The position numbers and the translations under genes were made by a program. Below the pieces are notes generated by a model that searched no databases, was not told the DNA's origin, and saw nothing but the letters and a program-made list of their open reading frames with translations. Below are positions 28,246 through 46,249 of a DNA stretch of 64,000 bases, one piece after another. Origin of the DNA: Alkalicella caledoniensis (GTDB lineage Bacteria > Bacillota > Proteinivoracia > Proteinivoracales > Proteinivoracaceae); the NCBI RefSeq assembly GCF_014467015.1, contig NZ_CP058559.1, forward strand, positions 1-64,000, written 5' to 3'. Each line of letters starts with the position of its first letter. Position 1 is the stretch's first letter.

Positions 28246-29121
28246 CTATGCTAAAGAGTCAAATAGTATCTCTGTCTCTAACTTATCCTCCAAATACCTT
28301 TTTTTGTACATCATATTCGCTACCTCAGCTATGTCCTTAATGAAGCCGTAGTTAAAAAAACCTCCAAATACTCCGCCTACCATTGGAATCCCTTTTAGTA
28401 ATGTTTTACGAGTGAGCCTTTTACCTACATTTTTCCCTACATTTCTTGCTGCAATAATTACAGCATATTTACCTCCAATTTCCTCTAACTTCATAAATGA
28501 GAACCTTTTTATGGCTATTCTGAGCATTTGCAACTCCGCCTGTATTGCAATTTTCCCACTAGTTTTTACTGCTGTTCCAAAAGATAGAAGCTTAATCATA
28601 TATAGTTTTTCTATAGGGTCTTCTGGGTCATAGCCATAAATTGCTGCTATCTGTTGCATTACTCTAAAAGTCAGAGTGAAGAATATCGGAATGTCAATTA
28701 TAGCCGCAGTAATATCACCTAGTCCCATTACAAATCCCTCAACTCCTCCAGCCACCTTGTTCTCAAACACAACGCCTCTAGCTAACTCATCCAATTTAGA
28801 AACATCGACTTTAACTAAGTCTTTTAAAGAAGAAACTCCGTCATTCTTAAATCTCTTAACAGCCTTATCTTTATCGTACGTATACTTAACCAAATCTTGA
28901 CCCGCGTCCATACAACCTACCAGCGCAGTTTGTGTAGCTTCAGTAACCTTACCAGATAATTTTCTCACATACTCAGGACTAGCCTTTGAAACTTTATCTA
29001 GAGAGTTTGAAATAAATTGGCCACTCTTTGCTAGTATTTTATTCTGATTTTTTTCAATATAATTCTTTTCCCATATCTTAACCTTTCTTAATTCTAGCAG
29101 TTCAGTACTACTTAACTTCAT
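28246..29121 (-). CDS. EcsC-family protein
   Basis: About 291 residues starting at the ATG at 29121, which follows GGGGGATAAG; the longer frame has no site. EVEGFVMGLGD-like (GVEGFVMGLGDITAAIIDIP) and FRVMQQIAAIYGYDPED are typical of EcsC domain proteins, followed by a glycine-rich hydrophobic segment (KGIPMVGGVFGGFFNYGF). EcsC in Bacillus is encoded with an ABC transporter affecting secretion, but stand-alone members such as this have no defined role. Probably membrane-associated. Confidence 0.85.
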   Translation of the reverse strand: MKLSSTELLELRKVKIWEKNYIEKNQNKILAKSGQFISNSLDKVSKASPEYVRKLSGKVTEATQTALVGCMDAGQDLVKYTYDKDKAVKRFKNDGVSSLKDLVKVDVSKLDELARGVVFENKVAGGVEGFVMGLGDITAAIIDIPIFFTLTFRVMQQIAAIYGYDPEDPIEKLYMIKLLSFGTAVKTSGKIAIQAELQMLRIAIKRFSFMKLEEIGGKYAVIIAARNVGKNVGKRLTRKTLLKGIPMVGGVFGGFFNYGFIKDIAEVANMMYKKRYLEDKLETEILFDSLA

Positions 29122-29345
29122 TAACTTATCCCCCTCAAAAATTAATAAGAAAAAATACAAAACTGGAACCATATAACTTATCTTTCCCTTCTGCTTAAAA
29201 CCTTAAATTTACAAGGTTTGAAAACTAGTAAATTTAATCTTGAACTTAGTATTGATTCACAATTAAAAGTGACCACTAATTAACGAGTAAAATTGCTCAT
29301 TAAGCATACACATCAAGAAATCTCTAAAAAATTTGACAAAGAGCC

Positions 29346-33800: not shown

Positions 33801-34565
33801 CTACTTAATGGTTCTAATCAAGAATTTCATCAATAGGCTTGTCAGCTCAATCATATATTCTATTTCATTGACGTTCACATTATCATCATGTTTTATGTAG
33901 GTATTCTGGTAATCCTTATAGTAGTTAATCAAGGCATTAAACATATTCCTTAACTCTTTAGATACTTCCGTTTGTTTAAGAGCTTGTCCAATTTCAGCTA
34001 TTTGGTTCTCTAGACTTTTCCCATTCCCTAGTATTTCTTTAAGTAATAATTCAAAAGCCAACCTCATATCATCAAGAATATTGCGTTCATAAATTCTATT
34101 GTCATATTTAACTAGAGCCTCGTTATATACTTTCAATGATCTAGGATACTGACTCAACCAATGAATAGTCTCCTGAACTAATTCGAGTTCACTGATAAGT
34201 ATATCAGTATATAGTTTTCCATACTTTGATAAGAGCTTTGTTTTTAAAGCCTTAGCATCCTCATTACCTGCAAAATCAGGTAAATCACAAAGCTCCTTAA
34301 TGATGAAAAACTGCTGTTCATCATTAAATGCCATTATATTTTTTCTCAGTGCAGTTCTCTTATTAGGTGCAGAATCCGGAAACGGATAATTACTATAAGG
34401 TATATTTACGTCGAATTTCACCGCATAAGCAGTGGAATACTCAGCTATTTTACTGCCAGATAACCCAGTATTGGTTTCTCCTAAGACATCCGATGCATAT
34501 GTTATAAATGCACTATCCATCAAAACACTCCTCCCCATATCAGCAAAATATTCTGACACCTTCAT
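33801..34565 (-). CDS. Hypothetical protein, possible abortive-infection (AbiJ/HEPN-like) partner
   Basis: 254 residues, mostly helical. The N-terminal 95 residues (AFITYASDVLGETNTGLSGS, PFPDSAPNKRTALRKNIMAF, QQFFIIKELCDLP) form a compact conserved-looking domain reminiscent of the N-terminal domains attached to AbiJ-type proteins. The C-terminal half has a HEPN-like length and an acidic to hydrophobic helix (EIEYMIELTSLLMKFLIR). I cannot place the RxxxxH motif of active HEPN RNases. It precedes the truncated endonuclease-like gene by 69 bases on the same strand and probably formed a two-gene system with it. Confidence 0.45.
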   Translation of the reverse strand: MKVSEYFADMGRSVLMDSAFITYASDVLGETNTGLSGSKIAEYSTAYAVKFDVNIPYSNYPFPDSAPNKRTALRKNIMAFNDEQQFFIIKELCDLPDFAGNEDAKALKTKLLSKYGKLYTDILISELELVQETIHWLSQYPRSLKVYNEALVKYDNRIYERNILDDMRLAFELLLKEILGNGKSLENQIAEIGQALKQTEVSKELRNMFNALINYYKDYQNTYIKHDDNVNVNEIEYMIELTSLLMKFLIRTIK

Positions 34566-35090: not shown

Positions 35091-36065
35091 CTAAATTCTC
35101 TCTTTTTGAACAAGACGTCGATAATGTTCTCCCAAAGCTGTAAGTCGACACGATTTACTCTCCATCGCAGCATTCCACATATGTTTTGCATCAACTGGAA
35201 CCAATAAATTTAATCTATTATACTTCTGTAAGATTGCGAATATTTCTGTATTTTCTTCAATCGGATCTGGCATGTCTTGATCTCGGCCCTTCATCTCTGG
35301 CTCATAAGTAGGATCAAGTTTAAACTCATATCCAGCATCAGGAAAATATTCAGCGATTAATCTTAAATCGTCCAATGATATCGGAGGTGCAACTTTTCTT
35401 AGGGACACAAATTGTTTAACATTTGTTTTGAATACCGGTCTTTGCTCCCAGGCTCCTAATGACTGATCAATATGTGCATATATGCTGCCGGGAGTTACTT
35501 CTCCAATTAAATTAGCAGCACTTCCACTTAATGCATCAACTAAAAGTGTTGTAAATACTCCTCTTCCATTTTCTTCTGATGCGTATTGATCTTTTGTTGA
35601 GGCAGTTAATACTGTAACTCCTTCATTTATATTAGCCACTTGAGGACTTGATACGTCTGAACCAGCAATTCCTGAATGACAACTATCCAAAATAATAATT
35701 TTATTTTTTGCTGGTGAATTATTCGCATAAGTTATAATTTCAGAAAGAGATACTCCTTCATCACCCCTTCTTGAATCACTAGCCATTATGTAACCGCCTG
35801 ATGATTCTATATGGCCATGTCCTGCAAAATAAAATAATACAACTTCAATGTCTTTCTTAAATAATTCCTCGATATTATCTTTCAAATCTGCTCTAGATAC
35901 TAAATCAGTTGGTCCAGTACCCGTCATAATTTCACAATCGAAATTAACACCGCCTCCATCGTTTCTTTCAAGTATCGATTTCACAGAATAGGCATCATTG
36001 ACACAACCAAACAATGGTGAACCACTTTGATAATAGTTTATACCTACAATAAGTGCAGCTCTCAT
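35091..36065 (-). CDS. Caspase-like (C14) protease, effector of a TIR-linked defence system
   Basis: 324 residues. The peptidase C14 fold is clear: [11 protein letters not shown], the catalytic His in [11 protein letters not shown] (His83) and the catalytic Cys in [11 protein letters not shown] (Cys129), then the [12 protein letters not shown] region. A C-terminal domain of about 100 residues (from [15 protein letters not shown] to [11 protein letters not shown]) may bind the signal. The gene follows a TIR-like gene by 17 bases. In caspase-type (type IV) Thoeris, the TIR protein makes an NAD-derived cyclic nucleotide that switches on a caspase-like protease, which then degrades host proteins. 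That role is inferred from the pairing. Confidence 0.85.
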
Positions 36066-36082
36066 ACATCCACCCCCTCAAT

Positions 36083-36454
36083 CTATAAACTATCAATAAA
36101 ATTAGTTATATTATCCCAAGTCCAAACTTTTGTATTTACTCCTTCAATGTTAGTTCTGTCATCTTTATATGCCCATACACCTAATATTTTTTTCTTCTCT
36201 TCTTTAGCACACTTGATTTCCCATTTTTGACCACTTGAGCTAAGAGAATTTTTACTCACCAATACTATAACACCATCCGACCTTTTAATTCTAGTTCTCA
36301 CCCTATCTTTCCAATCAGTTGCATAAGGTTCTTTCACAGACATATCTACATATTCAAATGGAGAATTTGTATTTAATGACTGTCCTTTTAAAAAATCTCT
36401 TTGTCTTTCATCCTCTATTGCAAAAGCAATAAAAACCACTTTTTTCGTTCCCAT
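36083..36454 (-). CDS. TIR-like ThsB-family protein (DUF1863)
   Basis: 123 residues. The ATG at 36454 is chosen because GAGGAGG lies six bases before it. KVVFIAFAIEDERQRDFL is the opening strand and helix of TIR-like ThsB proteins, DWKDRVRTRIKRSDGVIVL follows, and QKWEIKCAKE holds the expected catalytic Glu (Glu79). The protein ends TKVWTWDNITNFIDSL, as in this family. ThsB proteins detect infection and convert NAD to a signal molecule. It sits between a small gene (36472) and the caspase gene on one transcript. Confidence 0.85.
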   Translation of the reverse strand: MGTKKVVFIAFAIEDERQRDFLKGQSLNTNSPFEYVDMSVKEPYATDWKDRVRTRIKRSDGVIVLVSKNSLSSSGQKWEIKCAKEEKKKILGVWAYKDDRTNIEGVNTKVWTWDNITNFIDSL

Positions 36455-36471
36455 TTTATACCTCCTCGAAT

Positions 36472-36810
36472 TTATATTTCCCAAGATCTACATTCTGTTT
36501 CAACTTTATCCGATACTAGTGATATTAATAGTAACAAACCATCATTTTTCTTTACAATCCCATATTTTCTAGATTCATTTCCATTAATATACCCTGAGTA
36601 ATTACCAAAGTACTTGTTTAAACCCTCAACATCATAAATTCCATTTATGAAATCAACATTAAGTGATTCTTTAAATCTTTCAGTGATAAACTCTATTACA
36701 TCTTCATTATCGATATGCTTTTCTATCTCTTCAATTGTTACAGTTTTACCTGCTGAAATCAATGCTGTAATCTCTAATACAAAAAGTCCTAATCCAGTTA
36801 ATTTTGCCAT
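36472..36810 (-). CDS. Small unknown protein, first gene of the caspase-TIR operon
   Basis: 112 residues from an ATG with GGAGGGAAAAG upstream. The N-terminal helix (LTGLGLFVLEITALISAGK) is hydrophobic and amphipathic rather than clearly transmembrane. The rest is small and acidic (TIEEIEKHIDNEDVIEFI), followed by a beta-rich tail. No family recognised. It ends 17 bases before the TIR gene, so it belongs to the same operon and may be an additional component, for instance a sensor or inhibitor. Confidence 0.55.
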   Translation of the reverse strand: MAKLTGLGLFVLEITALISAGKTVTIEEIEKHIDNEDVIEFITERFKESLNVDFINGIYDVEGLNKYFGNYSGYINGNESRKYGIVKKNDGLLLLISLVSDKVETECRSWEI

Positions 36811-36848
36811 CTTTTCCCTCCTTTAATTTGATTTGTTCATTAGTCGGT

Positions 36849-37847
36849 TTACTTATTGTTCTGTTCAAATCTCCACGCATCTCTGACCATTTCGTCAATC
36901 CCAAGTTCAGCCTTCCAGCCTAGATTATTCTCAGCTTTGCTGGCATCAGCGAAGCTGATCGAAATATCGCCCGGACGTCTTCCGACTATCTCATAAGGAA
37001 CAATAATATCATTGACCTTCATAAAGGTGTTGACAAGTTCTAAAACTGAAGTGCCTCTGCCGGTTCCAAGATTATAGATCTTAATGCCATTTTTAAGATT
37101 CTCAATAGCCTTCACATGGCCTTTAGCGAGATCAACAACATGGATATAATCACGAACGCCTGTCCCATCTATTGTATCATAGTCATTTCCAAATACACTT
37201 AACTTCTGTAACTGTCCCTTAGCAACTTTAGTAACAAAGGGCATCAGATTATTTGGAATGCCATTAGGATCCTCTCCAATCAGTCCACTCTCATGAGCAC
37301 CAACTGGATTGAAATATCTTAATAGACTAACTGAAAAATTAGGATTTGCTATTGAAATGTCTGTCAATATCCTCTCGCTCATCGCCTTCGTTTCACCATA
37401 TGGATTGGTGGTTTTCTTAAGCTCCATGTCTTCTTTAAGTGGAGATGGCTGGTCACCATACACCGTTGCAGATGAACTGAAGACAAATTTACCAACTCCA
37501 TACTTCACACACATCTTGCTAAGTACCATCGTACTTACCAGATTATTATAATAATACTCAATTGGCTTGGAAACAGACTCACCTACTGCCTTAAGGCCAG
37601 CGAAGTGAATTACACCATTAATTTTATGATTATTAAAGATTTCCTCTACATTTGCTTCATCCGTCACATCGATCTGATAGAAAGTTGGTTTAATGCCCGT
37701 TATGGTAGATAGCTTGTCCAGCACTTCAATCTTTGAGTTTATAAGGTTATCAGCGATGATCACTTCATGGTTGTTTTTAATAAGTTCTACTACCGTATGG
37801 CTGCCAATAAAGCCTAGGCCTCCGGTTACTAATATGTTCATCTTCAT
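36849..37847 (-). CDS. galE: UDP-glucose 4-epimerase
   Basis: 332 residues of the extended short-chain dehydrogenase family. The NAD motif is ILVTGGLGFIGSHTVVELI; the active site has Ser/Thr in VFSSSATVYG and the YxxxK pair in NPYGETKAMSE. VVDLAKGHVKAIENL and the C-terminal WKAELGIDEMVRDAWRF are typical of GalE. It interconverts UDP-glucose and UDP-galactose for envelope sugars. Its start overlaps the stop of the truncated galU by four bases (ATGA), so the two once formed an operon. It is an intact metabolic gene inside the defence island. Confidence 0.93.
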   Translation of the reverse strand: MKMNILVTGGLGFIGSHTVVELIKNNHEVIIADNLINSKIEVLDKLSTITGIKPTFYQIDVTDEANVEEIFNNHKINGVIHFAGLKAVGESVSKPIEYYYNNLVSTMVLSKMCVKYGVGKFVFSSSATVYGDQPSPLKEDMELKKTTNPYGETKAMSERILTDISIANPNFSVSLLRYFNPVGAHESGLIGEDPNGIPNNLMPFVTKVAKGQLQKLSVFGNDYDTIDGTGVRDYIHVVDLAKGHVKAIENLKNGIKIYNLGTGRGTSVLELVNTFMKVNDIIVPYEIVGRRPGDISISFADASKAENNLGWKAELGIDEMVRDAWRFEQNNK

Positions 37848-38842: not shown

Positions 38843-40579
38843 TTAATCATCATTAATATCTATAGTAATACCCAAGAGCTTCTCTGATTCATGATCATCC
38901 GTAAGAGTCAGTACTGTATTATCATTAATGATCTTCTGGAACAATTCAGGTTCCAGATAATCTTTAATTTCATTGAGCTGGTTTTGGTTCACTGTAGCAA
39001 TATATTGTTTTTTTGAATCCACAAACTCTTCATATACAATCTTAAAGAGCTCGGCTTTTTGCCTTTCGTCGATACCATCGAAAAGTCTACTGTCATGAAA
39101 TAGAAAATTGATATTATGATTTTGGCCCTTAAATAATAGTGTCATGTCATAACAAAAGATTTTAACATTATTTATACCATCTGAATTGTCTGACTCAATT
39201 TTTGCATCAATATTGTATCGTTGGAGATTCTCTCCGTCATTATTGCTAACTGACAATCCCGCAACAGCATTCGGATAAAACCTTTTAGCTAAGCTTCTAA
39301 AGTAATCTCTTAATACATTGATTTCTGTCTCAATTTCAGCAAGGAAGTTCTCCGCTATTTCTGATTGCTCTAGTTGAATTTTTTCCGCATCTCGTAATTT
39401 TTCTTTATACTCTAGTTGAAGAGATTGGTATTTTTTTAAACTCTCTAGTTTGGTTTTCAAGTGAGCGCTCTTATCACTAAGTGATAAAAATACATCAAGC
39501 GCTTGATGATCTCCAAGATACTTCATTAAATGATCAAGTTCATTTTTAAGTTTATTTGCCGTCTGGGACTTTGCTGCAATCTCAGACTCAAATTTATTTT
39601 TTTGTTCAAGAAGTCTTTTTTTCCTGTTTGAAACTAACTTCTCATAAAATCTTTCTAAGTCGTTAAGAGTTTTTTGCAGATTTTCAGAAAAATGTACGTT
39701 AGCTTCTTCATATACTTTGGCAATATCATTCTGATCAGTTTTTGATTCCATATTCAAGCTCTTGTTTACAGACTCAATGTTATTTTGAATTAGAATGATT
39801 TTATTATTGAGTGCGAATAATTCGCTTTCTATTCTATCCGCTTCTTTTTGCACATCACGGTAGTCTTCTGCAACCTTGAAATTGCTAAGATTTCTATTTA
39901 ATTTCTCTATTTGTTCTTCCAAATCAACTATAGTCAATGTAACATCTTTATTTCCTGTAAAGAAATCCCTTAACAATTCATCATTCTTAAAATTACCTTC
40001 TAATGTTTTAATTCTATCTTGCTCTTTTTTAATATTATATTTTTTCTGAGCTAGAAAAACATCAAGTCCTAGCAGAAATGCATTGTACAGCATTGTCTGA
40101 TACTGGTTATAGCTACTTGAGGCTCCATTGAAATCTACATACCATTTTTTATTAGGTCTTATGAAAAATGGGAACAGAGATCTAAAGCTCAAATGTGAAA
40201 TATCATCCGGTATATTAAAACACACAGACTCCATTTTAGCGTTAAATTTTGTTAGCGTAAGCTCTTCGTCATTTAATATGATCTTATTTGGATTATCCGT
40301 CGATCTCTTAGCTGTATAATCTACTCCTCCAATAAAAAACTCTAAATAAAACTCCCAACCTGGGAGCTTGTTACAGAAGGATGTATAATTTTTCTTTTTC
40401 GACCCCATGCAAAAATGTATTATATTAACTATAAGAGATTTTCCTACACCATTGTATGTTTTGCCATTACTCTTATTTTCAGGATCCTTCTGCTTAGCAA
40501 CAATAAAACTTAATCCGGTTTCGTTAAATTCCACTGTCCTAAAGCTGGACTTATTAGCATAGACCTTCTTTAATTGCAT
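38843..40579 (-). CDS. ABC-3C system SMC-like ATPase (DUF2326)
   Basis: 578 residues. A split ABC/SMC ATPase: Walker A NGVGKSLIVNIIHF near the N-terminus (GVGKS at 44-48), two long coiled coils in the middle (about 180-430), and the C-terminal conserved LFHDSRLFDGIDERQKAE of DUF2326. These ATPases belong to the ABC-three-component conflict systems described from comparative genomics, in which the ATPase is thought to recognise foreign or damaged nucleic acid and release an effector. Its start overlaps the end of the middle-component gene. Confidence 0.85.
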   Translation of the reverse strand: MQLKKVYANKSSFRTVEFNETGLSFIVAKQKDPENKSNGKTYNGVGKSLIVNIIHFCMGSKKKNYTSFCNKLPGWEFYLEFFIGGVDYTAKRSTDNPNKIILNDEELTLTKFNAKMESVCFNIPDDISHLSFRSLFPFFIRPNKKWYVDFNGASSSYNQYQTMLYNAFLLGLDVFLAQKKYNIKKEQDRIKTLEGNFKNDELLRDFFTGNKDVTLTIVDLEEQIEKLNRNLSNFKVAEDYRDVQKEADRIESELFALNNKIILIQNNIESVNKSLNMESKTDQNDIAKVYEEANVHFSENLQKTLNDLERFYEKLVSNRKKRLLEQKNKFESEIAAKSQTANKLKNELDHLMKYLGDHQALDVFLSLSDKSAHLKTKLESLKKYQSLQLEYKEKLRDAEKIQLEQSEIAENFLAEIETEINVLRDYFRSLAKRFYPNAVAGLSVSNNDGENLQRYNIDAKIESDNSDGINNVKIFCYDMTLLFKGQNHNINFLFHDSRLFDGIDERQKAELFKIVYEEFVDSKKQYIATVNQNQLNEIKDYLEPELFQKIINDNTVLTLTDDHESEKLLGITIDINDD

Positions 40580-40812
40580 CTTACAACACCCCCATCTTTT
40601 TCTTCAACAACTCCAATAGAGTAAAGAAAAACAAGAGTGAGTAACAAGTTGTCAAAACTATGTTTTGCAACATATTGACTCTTTGATAAATCATTCTGAT
40701 ATTCATTCCATAACGAATCTATTGATTTTATAGAATCGACTTTACCTAATAAATATGCACCAAAACCTAGTAGGGATTCTGAAAAATGGGTATGTTTAGT
40801 TGGTACTATCAT
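40570..40812 (-). CDS. ABC-3C middle component
   Basis: 80 residues. HFSESLLGFGAYLLGKVDSI and FDNLLLTLVFLYSIGVVEEK fit the small all-helical middle component (type 6 like) that links the ATPase and the effector. It overlaps the effector gene by four bases and the ATPase gene by ten, so the three are made in fixed proportion. Its own family is short and variable, so the call rests mainly on context. Confidence 0.75.
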   Translation of the reverse strand: MIVPTKHTHFSESLLGFGAYLLGKVDSIKSIDSLWNEYQNDLSKSQYVAKHSFDNLLLTLVFLYSIGVVEEKDGGVVRCN

Positions 40813-41720
40813 TCTTCTCCCTCCTTAAAAGGTTCTTCGAAAATGTCACAAGTTTCAAAATACTTAGACATTATAACGATAACTGTCACTTGATATACCT
40901 GCTGCTTTTTCGGACTTAGTTGGTTAACTATATTCCAGAATAGCTCATCTCCACTATATTTCTCTTTTTCTTGAAGATAAACTTCATTTAATTTATCTCT
41001 CAGTAAATCCGCAATAAAATCGCTATTATTCGAAAGATAATCGTTTAAGTAAACCACTCTCACAAAAGCACTGTTTAAATACTCTGCTGTAACTTCTGAA
41101 AGATCGTTAAACTTTATCTTCTCATTAAAATCAGGAACTACTAAGCTAGGTTCTTTCTTTAAATCTATCGGTAAACCCATAATATGTGAGATTACTTCAT
41201 TAAGGATAGAAAAATCCATGTTTTTCAAATTGCTCGGGTCAGGCAGAAAACCTACAATTCTAAAAATTTGATCATCCTCTAGTGAAAATACTTCATTTTC
41301 TAAATCTTTAGCAGTAAGAATCTTAGCATCTTTCAACTTATAAGTATCTTTAAGACCTTGAATTAACTGTTCACAATCGGCGTTAACACCTCTATATTTA
41401 TCATTTACAACAAAGTAAAAATTATTAACGGGAGACCACTGCTCGACTAAACCTATAAAATCTGTTTCTATTTTTTTAACGAAATCAACATATGATTTTG
41501 TGATGTCTTCAGGAGCATAAACTTGATAATATGTGCCCTCACTCTTTATATACCCATCATTTTTCCGATCCCCGATGTTTCCCCAAGGTTTAATTGATTG
41601 GAATCCTTCATGCGCATAATACATCGTCTGAGTAAATATATCTTCAAATGCCTGCCCATTTGCTTCATGTATTTTATTTTTGAATAGTATTCTTGCTACA
41701 CTTCGCTCCTGAACATTCAT
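40809..41720 (-). CDS. ABC-3C effector with restriction-endonuclease-like N-terminal domain
   Basis: 303 residues. The N-terminal part has a PD-(D/E)xK-like order: GQAFEDIFTQTM (Glu26), GNIGDRKNDGYI (Asp55) and TYYQVYAPE (Gln66). This nuclease-like domain covers about 130 residues. The C-terminal half (from LNEVISHIMGLPI to MSKYFETCDIFEEP) is the ABC-3C C-terminal domain that docks with the middle component. Expected action: nucleic acid cleavage when the ATPase senses invasion. AGGAGGTTTGATTTA lies before the ATG. First gene of the operon. Confidence 0.75.
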   Translation of the reverse strand: MNVQERSVARILFKNKIHEANGQAFEDIFTQTMYYAHEGFQSIKPWGNIGDRKNDGYIKSEGTYYQVYAPEDITKSYVDFVKKIETDFIGLVEQWSPVNNFYFVVNDKYRGVNADCEQLIQGLKDTYKLKDAKILTAKDLENEVFSLEDDQIFRIVGFLPDPSNLKNMDFSILNEVISHIMGLPIDLKKEPSLVVPDFNEKIKFNDLSEVTAEYLNSAFVRVVYLNDYLSNNSDFIADLLRDKLNEVYLQEKEKYSGDELFWNIVNQLSPKKQQVYQVTVIVIMSKYFETCDIFEEPFKEGEE

Positions 41721-42697: not shown

Positions 42698-45055
42698 TTA
42701 GTTTCGAATTGTAACATCCGTTTGAAGCTTGATGCTGTTATGCCAGAAGTTGTACTCATTTAGCTTCTGGTTTGCTTCATTATATACAGGCTTTGTTCCC
42801 GTTGGATCCTTTATGGTTACCATTAAACAGAACTCTTGACTTGGCACTGAGCCTTCTTGCTGAGATTTCACTTCGATATGATCTCTGTAAAGTCCTCTGA
42901 TATATAAGTACCAGTTCTTATCTTTAGTAAGAAACTTTTTCTGATTTCCATCAGTCATTTCCGATAGATTCACAGCGTATTTTTTCACAGGGTAGTACTT
43001 GTCCCCATATTTTATCAAAAGTCTTTCCTTTAGGGCAAATTCATCAGTATTGCTTCTCATCTTTTTCTTACTGTAATAATCTTCAAGAAGTACATTTTGA
43101 GACCCGTCTCGCCCTACTGGATTTAGAATATTTCGCTTCGTTGTATCTCTATCTTTTTTACCATCATAAGTACCCATCTTAATATCCACATTGGATTGGC
43201 AGTACTCCGCTCGCTGGCTTGAATCCAAAATAGGGTTATAGACTAGGGTCACAACAATCTGCCCAGTGAAATAATCTCCATCAACAAGACAGTCCGGCAT
43301 AGGGAAATCCATCATGTCTATGTACTCCCCTTTTGCAATTTCATCTCTAAGAATCAGCGTTACTTCATGAGGTGAATTGTAAAGTATCTCTCTTACTGGC
43401 TGTGGCTTTCCAAACCCGACTTGATTTACCCTTTCAGTAACAGGAACATTAAGGTTTTCTGAGTAGCTTGCAGAATGAACCATTAATGCTTTGATTAGTA
43501 ATGGATCAAACTCTTCATCCATTTCTTGATGAAGGCCTGCTGCAAGTGCTGCAATCCTTGGAGTTGAATAGCTTGTTCCCACAGATTGACGAACAGCGCC
43601 ATCCAAACCAAATGATTTAACGCCTGTTGTAACCATACTGCCATTCCCATCAGTACCAGCATTCCCACCATAATGTACAATCTCTGGCTTTATAATGTAG
43701 GATGGGCCTCTGCCAATACGTGTAAATGGGGAAGGGTTATCAACCTCTGCAAAGTCTAAAGACGCTTTCTTATGGGCCAGAGAGCCGACCACAATGGAAC
43801 GGACACTATCAGCTCCTTGATGAATCTTTCCCTTTGGATGGCCTTTTCTAAAATTTCCGCAGTTTCCCGCTGACTTACAGATTAGCACCCCATACTGGTC
43901 CTGCAGAGCATCAAGAGCTACTGCAAAATCTGAAAAACTATACTCATCTACTTCGTTAACAACACTAATGGATAAATTCCATACTTTAACCTTTCGATGG
44001 TGGGCCTTTACAGCCTCTTGGATATTTCTAATTAACTCATCCTCTTCAATTCCTTCTTTATCTGTATCTGGATATACACAGGCATCTAGGATTTTGACAC
44101 CCTCAGTTCCTACCCATTCTTGATCTTCTAGATGATCACCATAAACAACCACACCAGATACAAAAGTTCCATGATCTCTTTTTACATATGGTTCTGGATA
44201 AGCTGTATACCTCTCTTCAGTAAGCCATGGTTTTAAATGAGGAATATCTGCCACTCCATTATCTAATACTCCAACTATTGCATATTTTTTCCCTTGTTTA
44301 GGGCTAGAAATATTAATAGTAGCTTCATCTTCTCCCATATCCAATGCAACTGTGTATTTTGGCATTGGCTCTATAGAGAAGATCGCTTCAAAAACTTCAT
44401 TTTGATTAATTGACATAAACTCATCAAGATTAACACCTTTAATATTGTAAACCACGTGACTTGGGGTGTAGTTGGTCCTAGATATCTCCAAGCCTAATTC
44501 TTTTATAGACCTTTCAAAATAGTTCCTTATGGCTGTATTTTGCTCGTAGTTTTGGAAGTCAATAAGTTTAACCTTGTAATCAATAGGCTCTGAGCTTTCA
44601 CTTTTATCAATAATCGGTTTAAAATCCGAAATACTATCAATAGCTGATAGCGCATGAGCATAGCGTTGTGTATTATTAAGGCGTTCGATAATCTTCTCTA
44701 CTTCCCGAGAGTCATCCACCTTGATAATTAATTCGTCTTCTTCCGCTAAACCAAGTACATTATTATCTGTACCTGTTCTAAAAAGATTGCTAACTTCACG
44801 CCTATGGGTCTTAGCCGTAGCATCATCAATAATTTTAGTCTTGAAAACAACAGGAATTAACGAATTTTCTTTTTCTTTTTTCAACACTTCAGCTTTAAAT
44901 TCTTGAACAACATCTACAAAGGCTCTAGATTTAATCATCAGCTCTTCTGGACTCAAGACGAACTTAGGAGGATCTCCGCCTCCACCAGCTTCCACCCTCA
45001 TGTTATCGACTTCTCTTTTAGCAAAAAACTTAATTGGTAATCTTTCATCTGCCAT
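42698..45055 (-). CDS. ietS: IetS-like subtilisin-family serine protease
   Basis: 785 residues. The S8 catalytic triad is visible: VGVLDNGVAD (Asp265), KRDHGTFVSGV (His295) and VGTSYSTPRIAALAAG (Ser495), with the oxyanion Asn in CKSAGNCG (Asn398). There is no signal peptide, so it acts in the cytoplasm. A 240-residue N-terminal region and a 270-residue C-terminal beta-rich region flank the protease. It follows an AAA ATPase gene by 20 bases. This pair matches IetAS, first known from Ti plasmid stability and incompatibility and later shown to act against phage. Confidence 0.85.
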   Translation of the reverse strand: MADERLPIKFFAKREVDNMRVEAGGGGDPPKFVLSPEELMIKSRAFVDVVQEFKAEVLKKEKENSLIPVVFKTKIIDDATAKTHRREVSNLFRTGTDNNVLGLAEEDELIIKVDDSREVEKIIERLNNTQRYAHALSAIDSISDFKPIIDKSESSEPIDYKVKLIDFQNYEQNTAIRNYFERSIKELGLEISRTNYTPSHVVYNIKGVNLDEFMSINQNEVFEAIFSIEPMPKYTVALDMGEDEATINISSPKQGKKYAIVGVLDNGVADIPHLKPWLTEERYTAYPEPYVKRDHGTFVSGVVVYGDHLEDQEWVGTEGVKILDACVYPDTDKEGIEEDELIRNIQEAVKAHHRKVKVWNLSISVVNEVDEYSFSDFAVALDALQDQYGVLICKSAGNCGNFRKGHPKGKIHQGADSVRSIVVGSLAHKKASLDFAEVDNPSPFTRIGRGPSYIIKPEIVHYGGNAGTDGNGSMVTTGVKSFGLDGAVRQSVGTSYSTPRIAALAAGLHQEMDEEFDPLLIKALMVHSASYSENLNVPVTERVNQVGFGKPQPVREILYNSPHEVTLILRDEIAKGEYIDMMDFPMPDCLVDGDYFTGQIVVTLVYNPILDSSQRAEYCQSNVDIKMGTYDGKKDRDTTKRNILNPVGRDGSQNVLLEDYYSKKKMRSNTDEFALKERLLIKYGDKYYPVKKYAVNLSEMTDGNQKKFLTKDKNWYLYIRGLYRDHIEVKSQQEGSVPSQEFCLMVTIKDPTGTKPVYNEANQKLNEYNFWHNSIKLQTDVTIRN

Positions 45056-45075
45056 TTACTACACCACCCCTCGTT

Positions 45076-46170
45076 TTATTCTGGCGAACTTGCTACATCT
45101 CTCACCTTCCGTAATGAATAATTGAAATTGTCACTAACTTCCTTTTGAGTCACGCCATATTGCAATAAATACTTGATAAATTCATTCTCGCTTATAATCT
45201 TATGATTCCGATATAAATAAACTTCTTGAAGCATATCCCAGTTATGTGTTGCTCCCTTTTTGTTGATGATAGATTTCTTTATGGTATTGTTTACGACTGT
45301 CTTTACATCCGCATGGCTAATGCCTTCAAAGGCCGCTGCCAACATTTCTAGTTTTTTATCGTTCTCAACCACATTGCTTTTTAGACTTTTTACATGAAGT
45401 TTAATCAGCTGCATAATCTCTTCTTTATTAGGTTTTTCCAAAGTAATAATCTTAGAGAATCTTCTCCACACAGCAGGGTCCAACAGTTCATGATGATTAG
45501 TTGCTGCAATAAGGATACTGTTTTGACTAAAATCATCTATATTTTGAAGTAGGCTATTCACAACCCTTTTTAATTCCCCTAGTTCATGCTTATCATCTCT
45601 TAATTTTGCAACAACATCAAATTCATCTAGGAACAAGATGCAGTCTCTCTTCGAAGCATAGTCAAAGATTTTTCTTATGTTCTTTGCTGTACTACCAAGA
45701 AGCGATGATACTAGACCATCTAATCTTACTGTTACAAGTGGTAATCCTGTTTTATATGCAATAAATCTCGCCACCGTTGTTTTCCCACATCCCGGTGGAC
45801 CGTATAAAAGTAAAGAGCTAACCATTTCAATCCCAGCACGTAGTATTTCATCTCTCTCCTCGTAGCCATGAATGAACTCGTCAATCTCTTCATGTATATA
45901 AGACTTCAAAATAGGTGCTTCAAATGATTTATCCGGTATAAAAATATCCACCATATCCATACGACTCTCCGTATCTACTGGCTTGGTGGAGAAATCATCT
46001 AAAGATGCCATCCTCGTTTTCTTATTCACTAAAAGAGATCGTATTTTCTTGGCAAGAGAAGCATCTCCAGATTTCTCTAAGTTTTCAGCGAGAACCTGAG
46101 CATAATTATAAACCTTCTCTTTATCGCCAATCATTCCACCTTCTATAATTTTAACAATCTCTGTATACAT
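45076..46170 (-). CDS. ietA: IetA-like AAA-family ATPase
   Basis: About 364 residues from the ATG at 46170, nine bases past GGAGG; an in-frame Met at 46215 has no site. Walker A LLYGPPGCGKTTVARFIA, Walker B CILFLDEFDVVA, sensor ATNHHELLDPAVWRRF and the arginine finger region are all of the FtsH/Spastin-like AAA class. A short N-terminal helical domain precedes. Together with the subtilase it forms the IetAS system, where the ATPase is thought to restrain or target the protease. The upstream region contains 21-bp repeats. Confidence 0.87.
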   Translation of the reverse strand: MYTEIVKIIEGGMIGDKEKVYNYAQVLAENLEKSGDASLAKKIRSLLVNKKTRMASLDDFSTKPVDTESRMDMVDIFIPDKSFEAPILKSYIHEEIDEFIHGYEERDEILRAGIEMVSSLLLYGPPGCGKTTVARFIAYKTGLPLVTVRLDGLVSSLLGSTAKNIRKIFDYASKRDCILFLDEFDVVAKLRDDKHELGELKRVVNSLLQNIDDFSQNSILIAATNHHELLDPAVWRRFSKIITLEKPNKEEIMQLIKLHVKSLKSNVVENDKKLEMLAAAFEGISHADVKTVVNNTIKKSIINKKGATHNWDMLQEVYLYRNHKIISENEFIKYLLQYGVTQKEVSDNFNYSLRKVRDVASSPE

Positions 46171-46249
46171 TTCGCATTCCTCCAGACAGTAATATTTTAA
46201 CCCACACAGATACATTTGTCAATGTATTTGTTATTTTTATTCCCATTTT

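Follow-up and report, generated by a model that had tools for sequence, protein, structure and literature searches.

The closest described counterpart of the locus presented here is type IV Thoeris, a defence system attributed to Rousset et al. 2025, the name of which also occurs in the accessible part of PMC13373217. According to the portion of PMC12847820 that is available, the product of the TIR protein of this system, N7-cADPR, specifically activates a caspase-like protease, and the two proteins are encoded in one operon. A second term of comparison is Hfx_cass2 (PDB entry 3FXH), a protein from an integron cassette that is, according to the accessible text of PMC3548836, dimeric and bears an acidic stripe as well as a binding groove, and for which the same text reports no sequence or structural relatives as of 2013. 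Full-text literature on Hfx_cass2 or 3FXH, searched with subscription journals mostly outside the coverage, returned only this structure paper of 2013. We have compared with the description of the former and with the structure and sequence of the latter a run of three genes lying in the first 64,000 nucleotides of contig NZ_CP058559.1 of Alkalicella caledoniensis, hereafter called the window.

Gene layout and the TIR-caspase pair

Between positions 35091 and 36810, the minus strand of the window contains three co-directional open reading frames of 112, 123 and 324 residues. The small first gene (36472..36810, minus strand) encodes an acidic protein that is predicted to be all-alpha and belongs to an Hfx_cass2-like family; it is followed by the gene of a ThsB-type TIR protein of 123 residues (36083..36454, minus strand) and by that of a caspase-like protease of 324 residues (35091..36065, minus strand), in which the caspase domain covers approximately residues 1-225 and a conserved C-terminal region approximately residues 226-324. 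When the TIR gene is counted from the ATG at 36454, as done here, instead of the upstream TTG at 36484 with which the listing of open reading frames begins it, both intergenic gaps amount to 17 bases. Each of the three starts is preceded by a purine-rich, ribosome-binding-like site on the same strand, read from the sequence, namely AAAGGAGGG (36816..36824) for the small gene, GAGGAGG (36461..36467) for the TIR gene and GAGGGGG (36073..36079) for the caspase gene. The frames, gaps and ribosome-like sites of the three minus-strand genes spaced 17 bases apart, as described in the earlier sequence-only reading of this DNA, are thus all present. A galE-like epimerase gene (36849..37847, minus strand) lies 38 bases upstream of the small gene, in the flank and outside the system. 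Promoter-like sites at the locus number 9 (versus 16.1 in shuffled sequences) and terminator-like sites 2 (versus 2.0), and neither count was given any weight. The whole genome consists of a single contig (3,695,371 bases), in which one match was obtained for the caspase domain and likewise one for the small protein.

The TIR protein matches the Pfam model ThsB_TIR (PF08937, E 1e-10), which we take to be the former DUF1863. Its Glu79, by its place the presumed catalytic glutamate of the TIR domain, is retained in all 57 relatives that were aligned from the best 80 of 369 loci (see below). The protease matches Peptidase_C14 (PF00656, E 8e-18), in agreement with the identities proposed earlier for both proteins. 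Its His83 and Cys129, previously noted as intact, are indeed so and, together with Asp127, occur without exception in the 80 relatives aligned (the best 80 of 369), 73 of the matched sequences being distinct. Over residues 1-225, the predicted structure of the protease (pLDDT 86.1, pTM 0.81) resembles the domains of paracaspases and metacaspases, the best match having Z 22.6 and rmsd 2.8 with 205 residues aligned, and the matches of the protease profile in the PDB are metacaspases and MALT1, with no entry named Thoeris among them. Residues 226-324 (window 35091-35390) contain conserved alignment columns and lie outside the rows of the fold matches. This C-terminal region is a candidate for the part of the protein that would bind a messenger. 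The caspase domain also matches the model of EACC1-associated caspases (NCBIfam NF047832), but its score of 97.3 bits lies below the model cut-off of 140, and a further difference from these caspases is that the accompanying small protein matches no Pfam family.

The pair fits the printed description of type IV Thoeris and its core can therefore be considered of a known kind: the TIR gene precedes the caspase-like protease gene in one run, adjacent to it and in the same direction, the two being separated by 17 bases, and the active sites, the TIR glutamate on one side and the H83/C129 dyad on the other, are intact. Domain content and operon form support the assignment of the core as a type IV Thoeris-like pair, a likeness drawn between the accessible part of a printed description and a locus known from its genes alone. 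The difference is that the window locus carries an extra first gene of 112 residues.

We consider it quite probable that the locus consists of a type IV Thoeris-like abortive-infection pair accompanied by a lineage-specific, mobile accessory gene of a phage family. We infer that the TIR-caspase pair acts by messenger signalling and cell shutdown: phage infection would activate the ThsB-type TIR protein, which would then make a small messenger from NAD+ (in type IV systems as described, N7-cADPR); this messenger would turn on the caspase-like protease, perhaps via its conserved C-terminal region, and the protease would break down cell proteins so as to halt phage production. The small first gene would be an accessory, either modulating the pair or riding along with it. 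A different division of labour, in which the TIR protein is a plain NAD-depleting effector that the caspase activates or removes by cleavage, would agree with the description of TIR proteins of both modes in the accessible part of PMC12847820, yet it appears improbable because the TIR protein matches the ThsB model and a TIR-caspase operon is the arrangement described for type IV.

Distribution of the pair

A search of 398 genomes of the phylum with a caspase threshold of E 1e-10 produced matches in nine genomes, that of the window included. Six of these (G125, G312, G212, G120, G265 and G385) have caspases with 45-62% identity and a TIR-like gene directly before or after the caspase gene in every case, while the caspases of G013 and G235, with 31-35% identity, were not counted in the same family. 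At locus L018 of G125 the adjacent TIR protein is 50% identical to that of the window and a second TIR gene lies ahead of it; Pfam TIR models recognize the adjacent TIR proteins of L019 and L020, and the remaining three of the six were judged by eye.

Scanning of genome contigs with an alignment of seven caspases retrieved 369 relatives, the best 80 of which were kept; these have 56-76% identity and record titles spanning many phyla. Among these best 80 of 369, a TIR-like frame of at least 75 residues is found within 900 bp of the caspase at 76 loci; it lies upstream on the same strand at 75 loci, and more than one such frame is present at 18. The five TIR queries other than that of the window match Pfam TIR models, L020 barely so (22.0 bits versus 21.2). 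No TIR-like frame was seen within 900 bp at four of the best 80 loci (L063, L068, L090 and L107), the caspase of L107 beginning 161 bases into its contig. With the window TIR protein as the query, tblastn found matches in 57 of the same 80 loci, with identity up to 84%. The pair is carried by plasmids as well: the caspase has matches in 95 plasmid records, and in 43 of these the match covers at least 80% of its length. Eight of 5,426 E. coli genomes partly match the operon DNA. In each of the four regions inspected in this connection (H2, H9, H11 and H36) a TIR gene adjoins the caspase gene, which is truncated in H36. TIR and caspase genes thus form a widespread and recurrent pair. The gene families, the operon form, the conservation in many phyla and the printed descriptions all agree with the type IV Thoeris reading that had been proposed earlier for this locus.

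The family of the small protein

No family of Pfam, PADLOC or PHROGs matches the small open reading frame, and its single match in NCBIfam (E 0.038, 12.5 bits versus a cut-off of 1143) is not credible. Used alone as the query, the small protein found nothing in genome contigs, viral contigs, plasmids and phages; in the PDB it did not find 3FXH, and its best match, a thioredoxin-like protein aligned over 38 residues with E 0.039, was rejected. Its first relative lies in genome G196, with E 2e-4 for one genome when 398 were searched, a weak match that we trust only because of the chain of relatives that extends from it. Weaker matches in G039, G122, G141, G218 and G381 (E 0.004-0.01) were dropped, since the family profile finds none of them. 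From G196 the chain continues with a 299-residue protein encoded by a plasmid of Desulfosarcina ovata, which matches in its C-terminal part (E 3e-7), and then with a copy on a Methylobacterium plasmid (E 1e-6) that is interrupted by a stop. Viral relatives emerged only with a three-row profile built via G196 and the Desulfosarcina plasmid; the closest of them shares 47% identity with the window protein.

In all, the family was found on six distinct IMG/VR viral contigs (L115, L116, L117, L124, L125 and L126, one of them a remnant), one chromosome and two plasmids. Its profile recovered the window and G196 alone in the 398 genomes of the phylum and G196 alone in 387 genomes of the phylum, a draw that overlaps with the former, and nothing in three genomes of the order of G125, a search run without a positive control. 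The scope of these searches was thus one phylum plus three genomes for the cellular profile, and single sequences for plasmids and phages; phage records contained no relative of the two viral members used as queries. On the Desulfosarcina plasmid (L109 3958-8282) the family domain forms the C-terminal portion of its protein, which has a probable membrane segment as judged by eye, and the gene adjoins one with an FGE-sulfatase domain and another whose product has a NACHT match slightly short of the cut-off.

The position of the viral members follows from the tables of open reading frames. In L117 the small terminase gene follows the family gene after 60 bp; in L116, L125 and L126 the terminase genes follow it after approximately 0.5-2 kb, and in L115 and L124 the family gene lies approximately 1-1.6 kb after the portal gene. 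A Pfam name supports the terminase or portal of L115 (portal), L116, L117 and L125; the portal of L124 is 40% identical to that of L115, the putative large terminases of these two contigs are 35% identical to each other and match no Pfam model, and the terminases of L126 were judged by eye from their likeness to those of L125. Family members are characterized by the motifs G-x-E-x-R-K-x-G and G-L-x-L-x-I near the C-terminus, and by a low isoelectric point, which is 4.7 for the window protein and 4.5-5.3 for seven family members or domains. A viral protein with 47% identity and relatives sharing the motif residues argue that the small frame is more than a chance occurrence, and these sequence comparisons identify it as a real gene, one of a rare family without annotation.

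A structural model of the small protein, built with five sequences (pLDDT 81.5, pTM 0.75), is almost wholly helical. It has one strong match in the PDB, namely 3FXH (Foldseek E 0.0092, TM 0.74), with no Foldseek match reaching E 0.001. In VIA the same entry has Z 13.7 and rmsd 2.1 with 102 of 113 residues aligned, while the next row has Z 3.9, to be read with the caveat that mostly helical models can score Z near 14 without a clear relative. Without recourse to the model, the family profile also retrieves 3FXH as the best PDB entry, with E 0.0017 (six rows) or 0.0019 (seven rows), the next having E 0.5. The case for kinship with Hfx_cass2 comes from this agreement of fold and profile, the fold being shared and the sequence kinship detectable via the profile. 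Both proteins are small, with a predicted all-alpha fold for the family, and the acidic surface of Hfx_cass2, as reported in the accessible text of PMC3548836, has its counterpart in the low isoelectric point of the window protein. However, the identity is about 15%, Hfx_cass2 does not have the R-K pair of the family in the profile alignment, and its gene comes from an integron cassette whereas the window gene precedes a TIR-caspase pair. By analogy with Hfx_cass2, the small, acidic protein of the window probably forms a dimer that has a binding groove. A library of viral structures offered nothing better than E 3.2 for the model, and a 101-residue stretch of 3FXH had no match in plasmids.

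While the TIR-caspase pair is already known as a type of defence, what is new is the proposed link that joins an orphan structure from an integron cassette to uncharacterised phage genes close to the packaging module and to the first gene of a defence operon. A so far unexplained protein family gains three mobile contexts, and a role in the conflict between phage and host becomes directly testable. It is conceivable, though we would call it unlikely, that Hfx_cass2-like proteins are mobile sensors or modulators of phage stage, which phages keep next to their packaging genes, and that one of them, captured by bacteria as a third component, gates the TIR-caspase suicide system in the window.

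The small gene in relation to the pair

Since its relatives are found in viruses, on plasmids and, judging by structure, in an integron cassette, the small gene looks like a mobile add-on. The earlier reading had suggested that it might be a component not described in the minimal two-gene form, for example a sensor or regulator. As a general component of such pairs it is not supported by the comparison: neither tblastn (E 0.01) nor the family profile found the gene at any of the 80 other caspase loci (the best 80 of 369), and this is the absence that the reading itself had named, jointly with a lack of effect when the gene is lost, as telling against it. The profile was run over open reading frames of at least 30 residues and found no member in nine other fetched regions and four plasmid regions, a tenth fetched region (L025) being the family's own locus in G196; as a control, it found again eight loci, six of which are rows of the profile while L124 and L126 are not. 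The sequence before the caspase exceeds 1 kb at 76 of the 80 loci (best 80 of 369), and L037, L057, L089 and L107 have too little of it to reveal a first gene. Within this set of the best 80 of 369, the TIR protein has at least 65% identity at 41 loci, 39 of which have enough upstream sequence; at 13 of these 39 loci a same-strand frame of at least 50 residues ends near the TIR start, three such frames (at L036, L055 and L064) holding an extra TIR and none of the 13 being a relative of the small protein by the profile. The absence of the small gene from the 80 loci indicates that the pair generally does without it. By gene content, therefore, the small gene is an accessory of the lineage and neither a standard nor a core part of the TIR-caspase pair, and its role may be confined to the lineage of the window.

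Such a local role could consist of a brake on the TIR protein or the caspase, or of a receptor for a late product of the phage, in which case the system would fire when a phage homologue competes with the small protein or when a packaging protein binds it. This possibility, which we regard as rather doubtful, draws on the small gene being the first of three genes closely spaced at 17 bases, on its third-position GC content (0.18, compared with 0.21 for the TIR gene and 0.20 for the caspase gene), which resembles that of the two downstream genes and not that of galE (0.38), and on its relatives on six viral contigs, all near terminase or portal-like genes. (Among other comparison genes, galU has 0.31 and three further genes of the surrounding island 0.26-0.32.) Against it stands the lack of the gene at all of the best 80 of 369 loci, nearly all of which have near-full-length caspase matches.

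A second locus of G125, L024, shares with the window the galE gene (82% DNA identity) as well as the TIR gene and the start of the caspase gene (89%). Its order is galE-TIR-caspase, with galE abutting the TIR gene and the small gene missing at the matching positions; this junction was read from the sequence letters, the MAFFT alignment having misplaced the right half. The TIR protein of L024 is 92% identical to that of the window. The locus is decayed, with an early stop in the TIR frame from the matching ATG and a caspase match that stops after 31 residues, and is for this reason no evidence that the pair can function in the absence of the small gene. That a locus devoid of the small gene also has a broken TIR and a broken caspase would fit the function of a brake, but this is a single case and the decay may be unrelated. 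L024 9159-12933 lies near transposase-like frames, and the same sequences occur at L018, the TIR-TIR-caspase locus of the same genome. The ruin of so close a relative might suggest that the operon of the window genome is no longer functional either; we consider this highly improbable, given that the three window frames are open and that their start sites and active-site residues are present.

The small gene of the window is flanked by a short repeat, with a left copy AAATTAAAGGAGG (36817..36829, minus strand) that has 11 of 13 letters in common with the other copy, AAATTCGAGGAGG (36461-36473); the two copies lie at the ribosome-like sites of the small gene and the TIR gene. Because this repeat brackets the small gene, the difference may be due either to a deletion in L024 or to an insertion in the window. 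The repeat also agrees with the idea that the small gene arrived between galE and the TIR gene as mobile cargo and performs unrelated work of its own. The scattered occurrence of its family, known from viral contigs, plasmids and a chromosome and, judging by structure and profile, from an integron cassette, agrees with this as well, as does the failure of the gene to recur beside TIR-caspase genes in the best 80 of 369 loci. We hold this idea to be plausible, though not probable, since the close spacing, a ribosome-like site of its own and a composition like that of the two downstream genes speak against it. Within the reading that we favour, a type IV Thoeris-like pair with a lineage-specific accessory gene, the accessory is rated about equally as modulator and as bystander: the tight run and the low third-position GC content argue for a tie to the pair, while the absence from the 80 loci argues against it.

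Other genes of the window resemble defence genes. Homologues of IetS (PADLOC E 0) and IetA (E 5.5e-141) are encoded at 42698-46215, and on their account the region looks like a defence island. Nearer to the operon, two minus-strand genes at 38843-41720 match PDC-M68B (PADLOC E 6e-92) and PDC-M68A (E 2.5e-11) and, less strongly, LmuB and LmuA; they thus form a pair of the ABC-three-component or Lamassu-like kind. On the other side, the gene at 33801-34565 resembles the candidate defence family PDC-S32 (E 1.5e-82) and that at 28246-29172 the candidate defence family PDC-S29 (E 4e-16).
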